Assembly: GCA_947501105.1 (NCBI GenBank)
Contig: CANMUP010000004.1
Coordinates: 124,001-188,000 of the forward strand
DNA from: an uncultured Flaviramulus sp.
GTDB lineage: Bacteria > Bacteroidota > Bacteroidia > Flavobacteriales > Flavobacteriaceae
Reading direction: 5' to 3'
Length of the DNA: 64,000 nt
Shown here: positions 13,861 through 55,721 of the stretch, one piece after another
Numbering within the stretch: position 1 is the stretch's first letter
How the letters are laid out: each line of letters starts with the position of its first letter
Made by a program: the position numbers and the translations under genes
Notes under the pieces: model-generated
Seen by the model: only the letters and a program-made list of their open reading frames with translations
The model's database searches: none
What the model was told of the DNA's origin: nothing

Positions 13861-13923
13861 TGAAATAAAGATAGCAAATAGTTAACCATGTTTTAGTTTA
13901 ATGCTAAAATGGCAGGCATGCCC

Positions 13924-14014
13924 GCGTGAGCGATTGCAATGAAAATCCTTTTTTGAGGCACGAAAAAAAGATTGTAATGGAAAGCGCGACCCCGAATTTT
14001 CTTTGGGGGCACGC
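13924..14014 (-). repeat. Dispersed structured intergenic element, copy A
   Basis: Read on the minus strand it shares the blocks GGGTCGCGCTTTCC, TACAATCTTTTT, GTGCCTC, AAAAAGGATTT and TGCAATC with copies at 15330, 32257 and 50979. Its terminal stem is GCGTG (13924-13928) with CACGC (14010-14014). The other copies have different but complementary ends, which indicates selection for pairing. It lies between the divergent rhomboid and rarA genes. Confidence 0.75.
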
Positions 14015-15329: not shown

Positions 15330-15416
15330 GGGCGTTACCACAAGGGTCGGGCTTTATGTTACAATCTTTTTGCTCGTGCCTCTCAAAAAGGATTTCCACT
15401 GCAATCCCTAACGCGC
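15330..15416 (+). repeat. Dispersed structured intergenic element, copy B
   Basis: Best-preserved copy. Terminal stem GCGTTA (15332-15337) with TAACGC (15409-15414). Internal blocks are AAGGGTCGGGCTTT, TACAATCTTTTT, GTGCCTC and AAAAAGGATTTCCACTGC, with a second stem GGATT/AATCC. It starts six bases after the rarA stop and lies between convergent genes, so it might also act as a bidirectional 3' end. Confidence 0.8.
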
Positions 15417-15436
15417 ATCACGTTTTTAAAAAAGCT

Positions 15437-42953: not shown

Positions 42954-44036
42954 TTATCCGTTAATTATCTTTTCTTGATGGTTGATTGATTCTTGATGAA
43001 TAGCTTTAAACATTTTTAAAATAAATTCTTCACTTAATCCTTTAGAATCTCCTTCTAAAACCATTTTACCTAAAATCTCATTCCAACGTTTAGATTGTAA
43101 TACTGCTACATTTTTACTCTTTTTCAGAACTCCAATACCATCAGCAGCTTTCATACGTTTCCCAAGTAATTCAATAATTTGATTATCCACTACATCAATC
43201 TGTGCTCTTAAATTATTTAGCGCATTTGTATAATCTGCTTCTCCATCTGTAGTTTTTCTAATTTTAAGATCTATCATCATCTGTATCAAAGCTTTTGGTG
43301 TAACCTGTTGTGCTGCATCACTCCATGCATTATCTGGATCGTAATGTGTTTCAATCATTAAACCATCAAAATTTAAATCTAACGCTTCTTGAGACACTTC
43401 AAAAACCATATCTCTTTTACCTGTAATATGCGAAGGGTCGTTTATTAATGGTAAATCAGGGAATTTATTTTGAAATTCAATAGCCAATTGCCATTCTGGA
43501 ATATTACGATATTTCGATTTTTCGTATGTAGAAAACCCTCTATGAATAGCACCTAAATTTTTAACACCTGCAGTATATAATCTCTCAATACCACCTAACC
43601 ATAAGGCTAAATCTGGATTTACAGGGTTTTTTACCAACACAGTTTTATCAGTTCCTTGTAAGGCGTCAGCAATTTCTTGCATTATAAATGGACTCACCGT
43701 TGAGCGTGCTCCAATCCATAATAAATCGACATCATGCTCTAAAGCCAATTTCACATGAGCTGCATTAGCAACTTCTGTACAGGTTTTCATTCCTGTTTCT
43801 TCTTTTACTTTCTGTAACCATTTTAAACCTAAAGCACCAACGCCTTCAAACATTCCCGGACGTGTTCTTGGTTTCCAAATACCTGCTCTAAAATAATTAA
43901 CATCGGTATCTTTAAGCTCGTGTGCTATTTTTAAAACTTGTTCTTCGGTTTCTGCGCTACATGGTCCAGCAATTACTAATGGATGATCTAATTTTAAATC
44001 ATCTAACCATGTTCTCATTTCTTTTTTGTTTTCCAT
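42954..44036 (-). CDS. Bifunctional DAHP synthase / chorismate mutase
   Basis: 360 residues. The N-terminal part (about 15-260) is a class I-beta type 3-deoxy-7-phosphoheptulonate synthase: VIAGPCSAETEEQV, FRAGIWKPRTRPGMFEG, LLWIGARSTVSPF, VKNPVNPDLALW and PLINDPSHITGKR. The C-terminal 85 residues are an AroQ-type chorismate mutase (LRAQIDVVDNQIIELLGKRM; VLQSKRWNEILG). It thus feeds chorismate and commits it to Phe/Tyr. Last gene of the attenuated operon, 11 bases after tyrA. Confidence 0.95.
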   Translation of the reverse strand: MENKKEMRTWLDDLKLDHPLVIAGPCSAETEEQVLKIAHELKDTDVNYFRAGIWKPRTRPGMFEGVGALGLKWLQKVKEETGMKTCTEVANAAHVKLALEHDVDLLWIGARSTVSPFIMQEIADALQGTDKTVLVKNPVNPDLALWLGGIERLYTAGVKNLGAIHRGFSTYEKSKYRNIPEWQLAIEFQNKFPDLPLINDPSHITGKRDMVFEVSQEALDLNFDGLMIETHYDPDNAWSDAAQQVTPKALIQMMIDLKIRKTTDGEADYTNALNNLRAQIDVVDNQIIELLGKRMKAADGIGVLKKSKNVAVLQSKRWNEILGKMVLEGDSKGLSEEFILKMFKAIHQESINHQEKIING

Positions 44037-44047
44037 AATTTTACTAC

Positions 44048-44899
44048 TTAACTAATTCCGTTTAAAATATCTTTTATATGATTGGTATCTTTCATTTCGC
44101 TAAAAATGGCATCAAAATCATCTTGTTTCATTAACTCTTTAAAATGCGTAAGATTTGTAATATACTCTTCTAATGTCTCTATAACATTGGTTTTATTTTG
44201 TTTAAAAATAGGCGTCCACATTTCTGGCGAACTCTTAGCTAATCTAACAGTTGATTCAAATCCACTGCCAGCCATATCAAAAATATCGCGCTCATTTTTT
44301 TCTTTTTCAATTACTGTTTTACCTAGCATGAACGAACTAATATGAGATAAATGCGACATATAAGCAATATGCTTATCGTGAGCTTCAGGGTTCATGTATC
44401 GAATACGCATCCCTATATCGGTAAAGATCTTTAATGCTTTTTCTTGAAGCTTAAATGTTGTTTTTTCAACCTCACAAATAATATTTGTTTTACCTATAAA
44501 CAAACCTGGAATCGCTGCGCTTGGTCCAGAATGCTCTGTTCCTGCAATAGGGTGCATTGCTAAAAAATTTCTTCGTTTAGGATGGTTTTCAACTACTTTA
44601 CAAATATCTACTTTTGTTGACCCTGCATCTACAACCAGTCCGTTATCCGAAATTTTATCTAAAATGGTTGGTAATAATTTTACGGTTGCGTCTACAGGAA
44701 TAGACACAATAATCAAGTCTGCATTTTCAATATCATCTAATGTGGCCTTTTTATCAATTAAATTAAGTGATAATGCTTGATTTAGTGTTGAATCTTTTCT
44801 ACTAATACCGTGAATAATCGTACTTGGATTATTTTTTTTAATATCTATAGCAAGACTACCTCCTATTAAACCAACTCCTATTATATATATATTCTTCAT
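44048..44899 (-). CDS. tyrA: Prephenate dehydrogenase
   Basis: NAD(P)-dependent oxidation of prephenate to 4-hydroxyphenylpyruvate. IIGVGLIGGSLA is the dinucleotide loop; HPIAGTEHSGPSAA and HIAYMSHLSHISSFML carry catalytic histidines. The start at 44899 (MKNIYIIGVG) is chosen because the frame's upstream extension to 44950 runs into the aminotransferase gene and lacks homology. The aminotransferase stop lies two bases upstream (TAA-GT-ATG). Confidence 0.94.
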   Translation of the reverse strand: MKNIYIIGVGLIGGSLAIDIKKNNPSTIIHGISRKDSTLNQALSLNLIDKKATLDDIENADLIIVSIPVDATVKLLPTILDKISDNGLVVDAGSTKVDICKVVENHPKRRNFLAMHPIAGTEHSGPSAAIPGLFIGKTNIICEVEKTTFKLQEKALKIFTDIGMRIRYMNPEAHDKHIAYMSHLSHISSFMLGKTVIEKEKNERDIFDMAGSGFESTVRLAKSSPEMWTPIFKQNKTNVIETLEEYITNLTHFKELMKQDDFDAIFSEMKDTNHIKDILNGIS

Positions 44900-44901
44900 A
44901 C

Positions 44902-46047
44902 TTATTTTAATCTTGCTAATGCTTTCTCTAAAACTTCGGTTGAGGCACATAAAGAAAATCTTATATAACCTTCTCCCTGAGTTCCAAAAATTGTTCCAGG
45001 GGTTATAAAAATATGGCTCTCTTTAAGGGTTAAATCTATAAATTCTTCCGCTTTTACAAATGCTGGCAATTTAGCCCAAACAAAAAGTCCTGTGGCAGTT
45101 TTATCATAGGTACAATTTAATGCGTCGGCTAATTTCCAAACTAAATCTCGTCGTTGTTTATAAACACTATTTAATGTAACAAACCACATTTTAGAACATT
45201 TTAATGCCTCTATAGCTCCTTTTTGAATTCCGTAAAACATTCCTGAATCCATATTACTTTTTACCTTTAAAACATTTTTTATATGTTCATTATTTCCAAC
45301 TAGCATACCAACACGCCAACCTGCCATATTAAACGTTTTACTTAAAGAATTAAGTTCTAAACACACCTCTTTCGCTCCCTCAATTTCTAATATACTTTTA
45401 GGGTTATTATTCAAAATAAAACTATAAGGATTATCATTTACAATTAAAATATTGTTTCGCTTTGCAAAGGCAACTAAATCTTGAAATAAGTATTTATTAG
45501 GCTTTGCTCCTGTTGGCATATGCGGATAATTAACCCACATCAGTTTTACTTTACTTAGATCAGATTTTTCTAAGCTTTTCAAATCTGGTAGCCAATTATT
45601 AGCAGCATCCAAATCATAAAAAATAGGGTTTGCTCCTACTAATTTTGTTACCGATTGGTAGGTAGGATATCCTGGGTTAGGAATTAACACTTCATCACCT
45701 TCATTTAAATATGCCATTGAAATATGCATAATACCTTCTTTACTTCCCATTAAAGGTAAAATTTCAGTATTAGCGCTTAAATTGACCAAAAAATGTTCTT
45801 TATAAAAACCTGAGATTGCTTCTCTTAATTCAGGAAGTCCTTGGTAACTTTGATATTTATGCGCAGATGGATTTAACAACCCTTCTGTTAAAGCTTCAAC
45901 TACTTTTTGGGGCGGTTGTAAGTCTGGACTGCCAATACCCAAATTAATAATAGGTTTACCACTAGCAATAAGCAAATTAACCTCTCTTAATTTTTTTGAA
46001 AAGTAATATTCTTCTACGGTATGCAATCTGTTAGCAACTTCAATCAT
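44902..46047 (-). CDS. Class I/II PLP-dependent aminotransferase (probable aromatic/aspartate type)
   Basis: 381 residues, fold type I. GIGSPDLQPPQKVVEAL, GSKEGIMHISMAYL, NPGYPTYQSVTKLVGA, WVNYPHMPTGAKP, and the PLP lysine in LNSLSKTFNMAGWRVGML, with the C-terminal substrate Arg in YIRFSLC. It lies between pheA and tyrA, with a four-base ATGA overlap with pheA. This suggests it transaminates prephenate, phenylpyruvate or hydroxyphenylpyruvate. Exact specificity cannot be read. Confidence 0.9.
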   Translation of the reverse strand: MIEVANRLHTVEEYYFSKKLREVNLLIASGKPIINLGIGSPDLQPPQKVVEALTEGLLNPSAHKYQSYQGLPELREAISGFYKEHFLVNLSANTEILPLMGSKEGIMHISMAYLNEGDEVLIPNPGYPTYQSVTKLVGANPIFYDLDAANNWLPDLKSLEKSDLSKVKLMWVNYPHMPTGAKPNKYLFQDLVAFAKRNNILIVNDNPYSFILNNNPKSILEIEGAKEVCLELNSLSKTFNMAGWRVGMLVGNNEHIKNVLKVKSNMDSGMFYGIQKGAIEALKCSKMWFVTLNSVYKQRRDLVWKLADALNCTYDKTATGLFVWAKLPAFVKAEEFIDLTLKESHIFITPGTIFGTQGEGYIRFSLCASTEVLEKALARLK

Positions 46048-46871
46048 AACTTCGCATTTTTATATTCTCCAAGAACTTTAAAATCTAATGCCATAATTTC
46101 TACTATTGCTTTGGCTTTTTTATAATCTTCATAACTACCAAAAGTAACATCAACAAAAAAGGCGTACTTCCAGGGCGTTTCTATAATTGGTAACGATTGA
46201 ATTTTAGTTAAGTTCATTTTACAATCACTTAATACATTTAAAATAGCTGCTAAACTTCCCCTTTTATGATCTAACTGAAACTTTAATGAGGCTTTATTTA
46301 TTTCATCAATGCCATTATTAGGCTTTTCTGTTTGTATAATTACAAACCGAGTTGCATTATCTTTTATAGTCTGAATTTCGTCCTCTACAACTTCAAGTCC
46401 AAAAATTTCTGCCGCAATTTTAGGAGCTATTGCACCTACGCCTTTTAATTGTTTTTTGGCAATTCGTTTAGCAACTTCGGCTGTATCAACATCTTCCACC
46501 AATTTAATATGTGGATACTCTTTAAAGAATTCTTTGCATTGTAATAGCGCCATAGGATGTGAACACACCTCCTTAATATCTCCTATTTTTTGATTTGGTA
46601 ACGCCATTAAATGATGATGAATATTTAAATAGCGCTCACCACAGATATGTAAATTATTCTTATCAATTAAGGCATAATTAGGAATAATGGAACCTGCAAT
46701 AGTATTCTCAATAGCCATTATGGCTTGACTTGAAGTTTTATCCATCAAACTGTCTACCAACACATCAAAAGACAAACATTCTTTCAATTTAATATCATTA
46801 CCATAAAAGTCGCGAGCAACTTTATGATGATTTGAGCCTTCGGCCCCTTGTATGGCTATCATTTTGATCAT
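46044..46871 (-). CDS. pheA: Prephenate dehydratase
   Basis: Converts prephenate to phenylpyruvate. MIAIQGAEGSNHHKVARDFY starts the catalytic domain; AIMAIENTIAGSI and the catalytic DNATRFVII follow. A C-terminal ACT domain (KRGSLAAILNVLSDCKMNLT) has KIQSLPI where E. coli has the Phe-binding ESRP, so feedback may differ. The open frame reaches 46898, but that ATG lies inside the terminator hairpin; ATG 46871 or 46862 is the real start. First structural gene of the operon, behind an aromatic leader peptide. Confidence 0.94.
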   Translation of the reverse strand: MIKMIAIQGAEGSNHHKVARDFYGNDIKLKECLSFDVLVDSLMDKTSSQAIMAIENTIAGSIIPNYALIDKNNLHICGERYLNIHHHLMALPNQKIGDIKEVCSHPMALLQCKEFFKEYPHIKLVEDVDTAEVAKRIAKKQLKGVGAIAPKIAAEIFGLEVVEDEIQTIKDNATRFVIIQTEKPNNGIDEINKASLKFQLDHKRGSLAAILNVLSDCKMNLTKIQSLPIIETPWKYAFFVDVTFGSYEDYKKAKAIVEIMALDFKVLGEYKNAKL

Positions 46872-46875
46872 ATTC

Positions 46876-46905
46876 AAAAAAAAAGTCTCGATTTTCATCG
46901 AGACT
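46876..46905 (-). terminator. Attenuator terminator in the pheA leader
   Basis: Minus-strand hairpin AGTCTCGAT-GAAA-ATCGAGACT (9-bp stem, 46884-46892 with 46897-46905) is followed by nine T's. It lies between the leader peptide stop (46929) and the pheA start. Its 5' arm GTCTCG can instead pair with CGAGGC at 46942-46947 inside the leader peptide codons, so it can be disrupted by an antiterminator. Confidence 0.9.
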
Positions 46906-46928
46906 CATATTAAATTTATAGTTATAAA

Positions 46929-47012
46929 TTATACATACAACGCCTCGTTCCTTTTGCTAAAAAAGAAATAAAACCAGTTGTTAAAATATGTATAATGCAT
47001 TGTTATTGTCAT
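46929..47012 (-). CDS. Aromatic leader peptide of the Phe/Tyr operon
   Basis: A 27-codon frame starting at ATG 47010-47012 and ending TAA 46929-46931. Residues 5-20 read MHYTYFNNWFYFFFSK; residues 7-18 contain nine aromatics (3 Tyr, 5 Phe, 1 Trp). The last codons (Asn-Glu-Ala-Leu-Tyr-Val) encode the antiterminator strand CGAGGC. Segment ATTATACAT early in the frame is perfectly complementary to ATGTATAAT at its end. This is the standard layout of a ribosome-controlled attenuator. Confidence 0.88.
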   Translation of the reverse strand: MTITMHYTYFNNWFYFFFSKRNEALYV

Positions 47013-47022
47013 AATTACGTGG

Positions 47023-47051
47023 CTAAAGTAAATAATATTTTAAGAAATCAA
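47023..47051 (-). promoter_or_regulatory. Promoter of the Phe/Tyr operon
   Basis: TTG (47049-47051), 18 bases, TACTTTAG (47023-47030) on the minus strand; the -7 box differs from TAnnTTTG at one base. The start would be about 5 bases downstream, leaving a short leader of about 6-10 nt before the leader-peptide ATG. Confidence 0.55.
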
Positions 47052-50978: not shown

Positions 50979-51104
50979 GGCGTTACCACAAGGATCGCGC
51001 TTTCCACTATATCTTTTTTAATGCTTCGCTTCGATATCTTCAACCAAAAAATATTTTGATTTCGATAGCCTCAAAAAAGGATGTCGCTTCAATCCCTAAC
51101 GCTA
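50979..51104 (+). repeat. Dispersed structured intergenic element, copy D
   Basis: Terminal stem GCGTTA (50980-50985) with TAACGC (51097-51102). Shares AAGGATCGCGCTTTCCACTA, GCCTCAAAAAAGGAT and CAATCCCTAACGC with copy B, plus about 35 extra bases in the middle (51022-51068). Its right end encodes the last residues and stop codon of the 83-residue ORF on the minus strand. Confidence 0.75.
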
Positions 51105-51340
51105 ACTAACAACTTATTAAGCTCACTAAAAGCTTCTTCATATTCCCAATATATCCATCTTCCATCAACATAATCCGTTAATATATATTTTTCACTAACC
51201 GATTTAATTCTAGAAACTGCCACAATTTTTTTCGAAAAACCACTAACAATTACTTCCTCGGTTATCTCTTTATTATTACTATCATAACCATGACTAATAA
51301 TATGGCTTCCTAGTGTTAATTCAATATATTTTGATTTCAT
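51089..51340 (-). CDS. Small hypothetical protein, 83 residues
   Basis: Mixed alpha/beta small protein with TLGSHIISHGYDSNNKEI, KIVAVSRIKSVSEKYILTDY and GRWIYWEYEEAFSELNKLL. It may be a small SH3-like barrel. I do not recognise the family. The final residues (SVRD) and TGA stop are encoded by the end of dispersed repeat D, so the C-terminus may have been shaped by repeat insertion. Confidence 0.55.
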   Translation of the reverse strand: MKSKYIELTLGSHIISHGYDSNNKEITEEVIVSGFSKKIVAVSRIKSVSEKYILTDYVDGRWIYWEYEEAFSELNKLLVSVRD

Positions 51341-55536: not shown

Positions 55537-55590
55537 TTGATATTATTTATATCTATATGTCATCAAGAAAAGTAAAAGAAACACTTTTCG

Positions 55591-55694
55591 TTATCTTTCT
55601 AATACTTGCAATATTAGTAGAATTTAGCACCTTCTTTATAGTTAAAGGGTTGCCAAGGCTTCAACGGGTCTATTCCCTCTACCTTTCTTGATAA
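55591..55694 (-). ncRNA. SAM-I (S-box) riboswitch aptamer
   Basis: On the minus strand it begins TTATCAAGAAAGGTAGAGGG, includes ACCCGTTGAAGCCTTGGCAA and AAGGTGCTAAATTC, and closes with AAAGATAA, so P1 is TTATC (55690-55694) with GATAA (55591-55595). P4 is TAATA-TTGCAAG-TATTA. The GAAGCC, GGCAACC and GGTGC blocks are the conserved SAM-I core. It lies 55 bases before the homocysteine methyltransferase start. SAM binding should lower expression of the metH operon. Confidence 0.94.
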
Positions 55695-55721
55695 CAATTA
55701 ATACGTTTATGAACTGAAGTA

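Follow-up and report, generated by a model that had tools for sequence, protein, structure and literature searches.

What controls the aromatic operon headed by pheA is the question raised by a short region within the 64,000-nucleotide stretch of Flaviramulus DNA analyzed here (the window, always meaning this whole stretch). The original prediction, made from the sequence alone, read the region directly before pheA as a complete ribosome-controlled attenuator of a Phe/Tyr operon. This reading is supported by comparative data, namely conservation of a leader peptide, covariation of three RNA segments (segments 2, 3, and 4 below) and the spacing of these elements, and it is very probable that a ribosome-mediated transcription attenuator of the Escherichia coli trp/phe type controls the four-gene aromatic operon. 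In the following, we describe the operon and its leader, summarize their conservation, and weigh the other explanations of the same region.

The operon and its neighborhood

All four genes of the operon are located on the minus strand. The leading gene, pheA (46044..46871), encodes a prephenate dehydratase (Pfam PDT, 1.6e-53) with a likely ACT domain, which scored 21.1 bits and thus stays under the Pfam cut-off of 27. Its most likely start, judged from the sequence, is the ATG at 46871; the start of the mechanically called pheA ORF, 46898, falls in the loop of the terminator described below, and recognizing this is of benefit for annotation. Downstream are a class I/II aminotransferase gene (44902..46047; Pfam Aminotran_1_2, 1.6e-57), the prephenate dehydrogenase gene tyrA (44048..44950; NCBIfam NF006307, 379.2 bits with a cut-off of 295), whose true start is probably further in, at MKNIYIIG as judged by eye, and a gene for DAHP synthase fused to chorismate mutase (42954..44036; Pfam DAHP_synth_1, 4e-37; CM_2, 7.5e-22). 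Of 80 named loci, 78 share the order pheA-aminotransferase-tyrA-DAHP synthase/chorismate mutase, and the remaining two are short contigs that cut the operon; the best named pheA matches are found in Flaviramulus, Algibacter, and Wocania. The function of the four genes fits the codons of the leader. Directly upstream of the leader lies gldA in divergent orientation, which leaves the terminator before pheA without a same-strand neighbor to end and rules out a plain terminator of the upstream gene. Elsewhere in the 64-kb window there are a SAM riboswitch (55588-55697, minus strand, 89.2 bits) and three Flavo-1 RNAs of unknown function (13916-13995, plus strand; 15341-15417 and 50989-51111, both minus strand).

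The putative leader peptide and its probable promoter

The leader peptide ORF, MTITMHYTYFNNWFYFFFSKRNEALYV followed by its stop codon, occupies 46929..47012 on the minus strand (47012..46929 in the coding direction) and has 27 codons. Just as the original prediction had it, nine aromatic residues are crowded within residues 7-18 (Y7, Y9, F10, W13, F14, Y15, F16, F17, and F18), and the uninterrupted run Trp13-Phe14-Tyr15-Phe16-Phe17-Phe18 (46959..46976, minus strand) presents the putative stall codons. Upstream is a probable promoter, recognized by its sequence (47023..47051, minus strand), which consists of TTG at 47051-47049 and the -7 box TACTTTAG at 47030-47023 separated by a spacer of 18 nt. 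This box has one mismatch to the Bacteroidota type TAnnTTTG, given as the -7 consensus of sigmaA in PMC9723704. In the 50 nt preceding the leader ATG, 105 of 130 family loci carry TAnnTT[TA]G and 53 carry the strict TAnnTTTG, whereas single-base shuffles predict 11.1 and 5.7 loci, respectively. A Shine-Dalgarno-like tetramer (GGAG, GAGG, or AGGA) just before the leader is absent in 128 of the 130 loci. When the upstream region of the window was shuffled by dinucleotides, an ATG ORF with at least six aromatics in eight residues arose in 51 of 3000 shuffles, so that the leader ORF by itself is only moderately unlikely by chance; it is its conservation, rather than the ORF alone, that carries the case for a putative leader.

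Conservation of the leader in Flavobacteriaceae

A pheA match was obtained in 228 of the 249 family genomes searched. The loci compared (L001-L136) were chosen by score, with 56 from earlier searches and the best 80 of at least 573 matches listed, so that close relatives are favored in the sample. Their 136 upstream regions include 133 distinct ones. Both the position and the aromatic content of the leader are conserved. Short aromatic-rich frames before pheA in this family had been proposed as a test of the attenuator, and an ORF with at least six aromatics in eight residues indeed precedes pheA in 128 of the 133 distinct regions, compared with 29 of 2660 dinucleotide shuffles and with 2 of 136 loci in the reverse-strand control. 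Three loci (L018, L026, and L131) are without such an ORF within 450 nt before pheA. In L018 and L131 the aromatic-rich leader is found further upstream, whereas in L026 there is no leader anywhere in the stretch read, which counts against the attenuator. The leader of L018, MNTTVYTYQTWNYFFFSKRNETSYV, is located 572-650 nt before pheA, and several near-identical repeats of about 110 nt are visible by eye between the two. These three loci were left out of the structure analysis, which covers 130 family loci; all 130 have a hairpin followed by a T run between leader and pheA, under a permissive rule applied without shuffle control.

RNA segments, terminator and predicted folds

The RNA of the leader region can be divided into four segments, all on the minus strand. 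Segment 1, ATTATACATA (46987..46996), pairs with TATGTATAAT (46928..46937), a stretch that overlaps the leader stop codon. The original prediction had described this early stem as a 9-bp match of ATTATACAT (46996..46988) with ATGTATAAT (46936..46928); both places are correct, and the perfect match proves to be 10 bp long (46996..46987 with 46937..46928). Segment 2, CGAGGC (46942..46947), is the 5' arm of the antiterminator and, as had been proposed, is able to pair with GTCTCG (46904-46899) in the 5' arm of the terminator, in 6 bp including one G-U. This GTCTCG is segment 3 (46899..46904), common to antiterminator and terminator. The intrinsic terminator itself is the stem-loop GAGTCTCGAT-GAAA-ATCGAGACTT (46883..46906; -14.0 kcal/mol alone) with a run of nine T (46876..46884) that reaches to 4 nt from the likely start of pheA, in agreement with the hairpin and nine T's originally noticed just before pheA. 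It is the only terminator-like site found in 601 bases on both strands, where 0.1 is expected.

The predicted folding energy of the 140-nt leader is -31.9 kcal/mol, whereas its shuffles average -17.9 (sd 3.0), which gives a z of -4.64, and none of 200 shuffles reaches the value of the leader. The minimum-energy fold of the leader consists of the early stem and the terminator. We also predicted folds with a ribosome placed on the leader, letting its A site occupy codons 13 to 18 and counting 9 nt past the A site as covered. With the ribosome there, and before segment 4 is made, the predicted fold is the antiterminator (-13.0 kcal/mol), topped by an inner A+T hairpin, AATTTATAACTATAAATT (46913..46930, minus strand). 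A ribosome that has reached the stop codon leaves the terminator as the sole predicted structure (-14.0 kcal/mol), and without a ribosome the early stem is predicted together with the terminator (-31.5 kcal/mol). At equilibrium with a stalled ribosome, the terminator fold (-17.5) beats the antiterminator (-13.0), which counts against the attenuator; since the completed terminator is the more stable, the switch must be kinetic and decided during transcription.

Covariation of the competing stems

For the family, a MAFFT alignment of 129 distinct rows was built without reference to structure. The antiterminator, in which segment 2 pairs with segment 3, is paired in 687 of 705 ungapped cells (97.4%), compared with 16.7-42.6% in slid controls, and two-sided changes occur at four of its six pairs (in 29, 5, 2, and 2 rows); one pair is A-U in 100 rows and G-C in 29 with no mismatch at all. 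The terminator is paired in 95.8% of cells and its arms show matching changes, indicating that segments 2, 3, and 4 change together. The arm variants CGAGAC/GTCTCG, CGGGAC/GTCCCG, and CGGAAC/GTTCCG are seen across the family, and thus the CGAGGC/GTCTCG pairing, for which covariation in relatives had been named as a check, is conserved with compensatory changes. Among 25 close relatives there is no two-sided change in either antiterminator or terminator, which makes covariation in that clade uninformative on these stems, and we rejected it as proof of the antiterminator; the terminator stem is fully paired in all 25.

A search for the best-matching segment 2 nearly always returns something, and therefore its mere presence is not evidence, whereas a swap control is. 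Across 184 loci, the terminator arm of the same locus scored 18.2 on average, compared with 10.9 for unlike arms taken from other loci, and it beat at least 95% of these in 153 loci. In the other 31 it did not, which counts against the attenuator.

The early stem, ATTATACAT/ATGTATAAT, pairs well in the 25 close relatives (89.9% of 248 cells), and three pairs show two-sided changes, a number also reached by 30 of 500 shuffles. Stems of the early type beat all but at most one of 20 shuffles in 11 of 26, 10 of 30, 51 of 73, and 26 of 54 loci in four groups. The early stem as originally proposed thus has good pairing among close relatives and modest support overall.

Spacing between the putative stall codons and segment 2

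In the window, 11 nt separate the last aromatic codon from CGAGGC. The core of segment 2 (GAGAC-type) could be placed for this count in 125 of 129 loci, with L066 (one-base mismatch) being without segment 2, and in 120 of the 125 it begins 10-12 nt after the last aromatic codon. Distances of 10, 11, and 12 nt occur in 66, 27, and 27 loci and correspond to three different reading frames. A distance fixed in nucleotides across three frames indicates that segment 2 is kept as RNA and not as peptide sequence. The size of the ribosome footprint is established, and 10-12 nt is what the leading edge of a stalled ribosome would demand. In 54 more distant loci the spacing, counted up to where the best match begins, is looser (6-16 nt).

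Distribution beyond the family

A search of the class matched the pheA query in 89 of 296 class genomes. From these, 58 of 76 matches from other orders and one of two non-family matches from the same order were fetched, and 15 further loci (10 of the family and 5 of the same order) were added, giving a distant set of 74. The rule for a leader was looser here, with five of eight aromatics, GTG and TTG starts allowed, and a range of 650 nt; the nearest shuffle figure (ATG only, 450 nt) is 174 of 2660 reaching five of eight aromatics. Under this rule, leader, terminator, and best segment 2 are present in 54 of the 74 loci, no leader is found in 19, and one has a leader without terminator. The terminator, called by the permissive rule without shuffle control, thus accompanies 54 of the 55 distant leaders, and 43 of the 54 complete loci pass the swap control. 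All three parts are present in 40 of the 59 loci outside the family (L147-L205). Their peptides and arms are very different in sequence, for example GCCGGGACT/AGTCCCGGC and GGCAGGA/TCCTGCC. In four loci where no leader was found (L147, L148, L150, and L151), a long ORF ends 8-14 nt before pheA, and the leader could therefore lie further upstream in such misses.

Proposed mechanism and alternative explanations

From the observed parts with their possible pairings, conservation, covariation, and spacing, we infer how the leader would be translated, where ribosomes would stall, and how termination in the cell would respond to amino acids, as follows. RNA polymerase would make the leader, which would be translated at once. 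When charged tRNAs for Phe, Tyr, and perhaps Trp are plentiful, the ribosome would reach the stop codon and cover segment 2 (CGAGGC), segment 3 (GTCTCG) would then pair with segment 4, and transcription would stop before pheA. When the leader is untranslated, segment 1 would pair with the stretch adjoining segment 2, and termination would again be the outcome. When charged aromatic tRNA is scarce, the ribosome would stall on the W-F-Y-F-F-F run and mask segment 1, while segment 2, 11 nt past the final aromatic codon, would stay just clear of the ribosome. Segment 2 would then pair with newly made segment 3 before segment 4 exists, and polymerase would enter pheA. Under amino acid plenty, the main block on CGAGGC is probably the ribosome at the stop codon. 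In some loci (e.g., L114, L187, and L195) the stop codon comes 25-31 nt after segment 2, and a ribosome that has run to the end of the leader could hardly mask segment 2 there; this counts against the scheme.

If the leader were a functional small protein, made from a gene that has a terminator of its own, and did not regulate pheA, a short conserved ORF with a terminator behind it would be expected as well. We regard this as very improbable, given that the peptide outside the aromatic run varies widely among loci (SKRNEALYV, KRGTGLL, NKS, RNCEAGSCV), that segment 2 is read in three frames or lies at the stop codon, and that the position before pheA is kept; moreover, a covarying antiterminator arm would be purposeless for a plain small-protein gene. 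Least probable of all, with hardly any weight, is an RNA that binds a metabolite or a tRNA (riboswitch or T-box) and controls the terminator while the ORF is incidental. Such an RNA would account for alternative structures before a terminator, but no Rfam family matched at gathering score in the window leader or in the 10 related pheA leaders tested (L002, L007, L036, L041, L064, L101, L152, L171, L187, and L215), and by eye there is no conserved aptamer-like core, the conserved features being aromatic codons, spacing, and complementarity. Rfam matches to MicC, BSnc120, and STnc480 at the leader are far under their gathering scores and were rejected.

The stem ends at 46883, 11 nt before the likely start ATG 46871, so near that the hairpin might act mainly on pheA translation. 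Such translational or mixed control is compatible with the attenuator and is improbable as the main effect: the nine T after the stem and its full pairing in 25 of 25 close relatives look like a terminator, and the hairpin stands more than 100 nt before pheA in some relatives (e.g., L104, L035, and L131), a distance easier to reconcile with transcriptional than with translational control.

Relation to known leaders

The pheA attenuator of E. coli (pheL) has a Phe-rich leader peptide and competing antiterminator and terminator structures, with pheA as its target. All of these recur in the window leader. Unlike pheL, the leader here mixes Phe, Tyr, and Trp, it stands before an operon that serves Phe and Tyr jointly and includes DAHP synthase, and no Shine-Dalgarno-like tetramer stands just before 128 of the 130 family leaders. 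Attenuators in Bacteroidetes/Chlorobi are reportedly mentioned by Vitreschak et al. in 2004. Neither the window leader nor the 10 related pheA loci match Rfam RF01859 (Phe_leader) or RF01692 (Bacteroid-trp) at gathering score. Bacteroid-trp, listed in Table 1 of PMC2864571, is likewise a leader-peptide RNA of Bacteroidota, but it has Trp codons and belongs to the trp operon.

A structured 5' element upstream of pheA was reported in 2021 for Flavobacterium psychrophilum, conserved in other Flavobacteriaceae genera and without Rfam hit; the same paper sees "strong clues" that leader peptides attenuate amino acid operons (PMC9723704). The element occupies the same place in the same family as the window leader. 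Section 19 of that paper lacks a leader sequence for pheA as well as data on its covariation and spacing. Leader-peptide-like sORFs are described in Bacteroides thetaiotaomicron (PMC7366714), and two candidate uORFs containing Phe/Tyr before shikimate genes in PMC6429828. In the open-licence literature, supplements aside, we found no detailed description of the Flavobacteriaceae pheA leader. Attenuation before amino acid operons is therefore a known kind of control, while the pheA leader in Bacteroidota is little described.

Putatively sensed amino acids and other leaders of the genome

Phe is the most frequent aromatic residue in the leaders and Tyr the next, and the aromatic run ends on Phe in 105 and on Tyr in 25 of 130 family loci. 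Trp is present in 103 of the 130, compared with about 28 expected from composition, and its usual place is 5 or 9-10 codons ahead of where the run ends; it is also present in 22 of 54 more distant leaders. Such counts are inflated by shared descent. From these sequences, it is possible that the pheA leader senses Trp too. A further step, that one attenuator across the class Bacteroidia senses Phe, Tyr, and Trp at once before an operon including DAHP synthase, is a tentative idea that we lean against. In E. coli, aromatic control is split among several regulators. With Phe, Tyr, and often Trp codons in front of an operon that holds the shared first enzyme, DAHP synthase, a single leader would, if the idea is true, do this divided job.

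Leaders also precede thrA, ilvD, hisG, and trpE in the same genome, so that the pheA leader is one of a set. The trpE leader, MNIILNNTWWWCFRN, comes with a terminator (L231, G000:C2:183700-185800, reverse strand) and matches Bacteroid-trp (RF01692) at 64.6 bits with a cut-off of 49. Before hisG, a His-rich leader, MAFIQLHHHFHICSQAN, is followed by a terminator (L230, G000:C3:574800-576400, reverse strand) and has no Rfam match at gathering score. An Ile/Val-rich leader, MQQKMKNQILNTISIIVIVIISQR, with a terminator precedes ilvD (L229, G000:C4:213300-215500, plus strand), with a SAM-II riboswitch match near it on the other strand (914-1000 of L229). The Thr/Ile-rich leader before thrA ends in TTAIFGTTTITITLWGC (L227, G000:C3:516500-520500, reverse strand); a simple scan found no terminator there. 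Genome-wide, a pattern of five Phe/Tyr codons occurs at 231 forward and 290 reverse places, no more than in the backward control (307 and 323), and is thus unfit for finding further leaders; a four-His pattern occurs at 69 places with 18 in the control.

Significance

The putative pheA leader is a well-defined regulatory RNA without Rfam match. It is conserved among the Flavobacteriaceae loci read, and other families of the class show the same arrangement in sequences that differ greatly. If sensing is indeed three-way, the 10-12 nt spacing would also mean translation close behind RNA polymerase on leaders without Shine-Dalgarno. An attenuator of this kind works only if the ribosome closely trails RNA polymerase, and its conservation therefore speaks indirectly for a coupling of transcription and translation in Bacteroidota, whose leaders studied here show no Shine-Dalgarno-like sequence.
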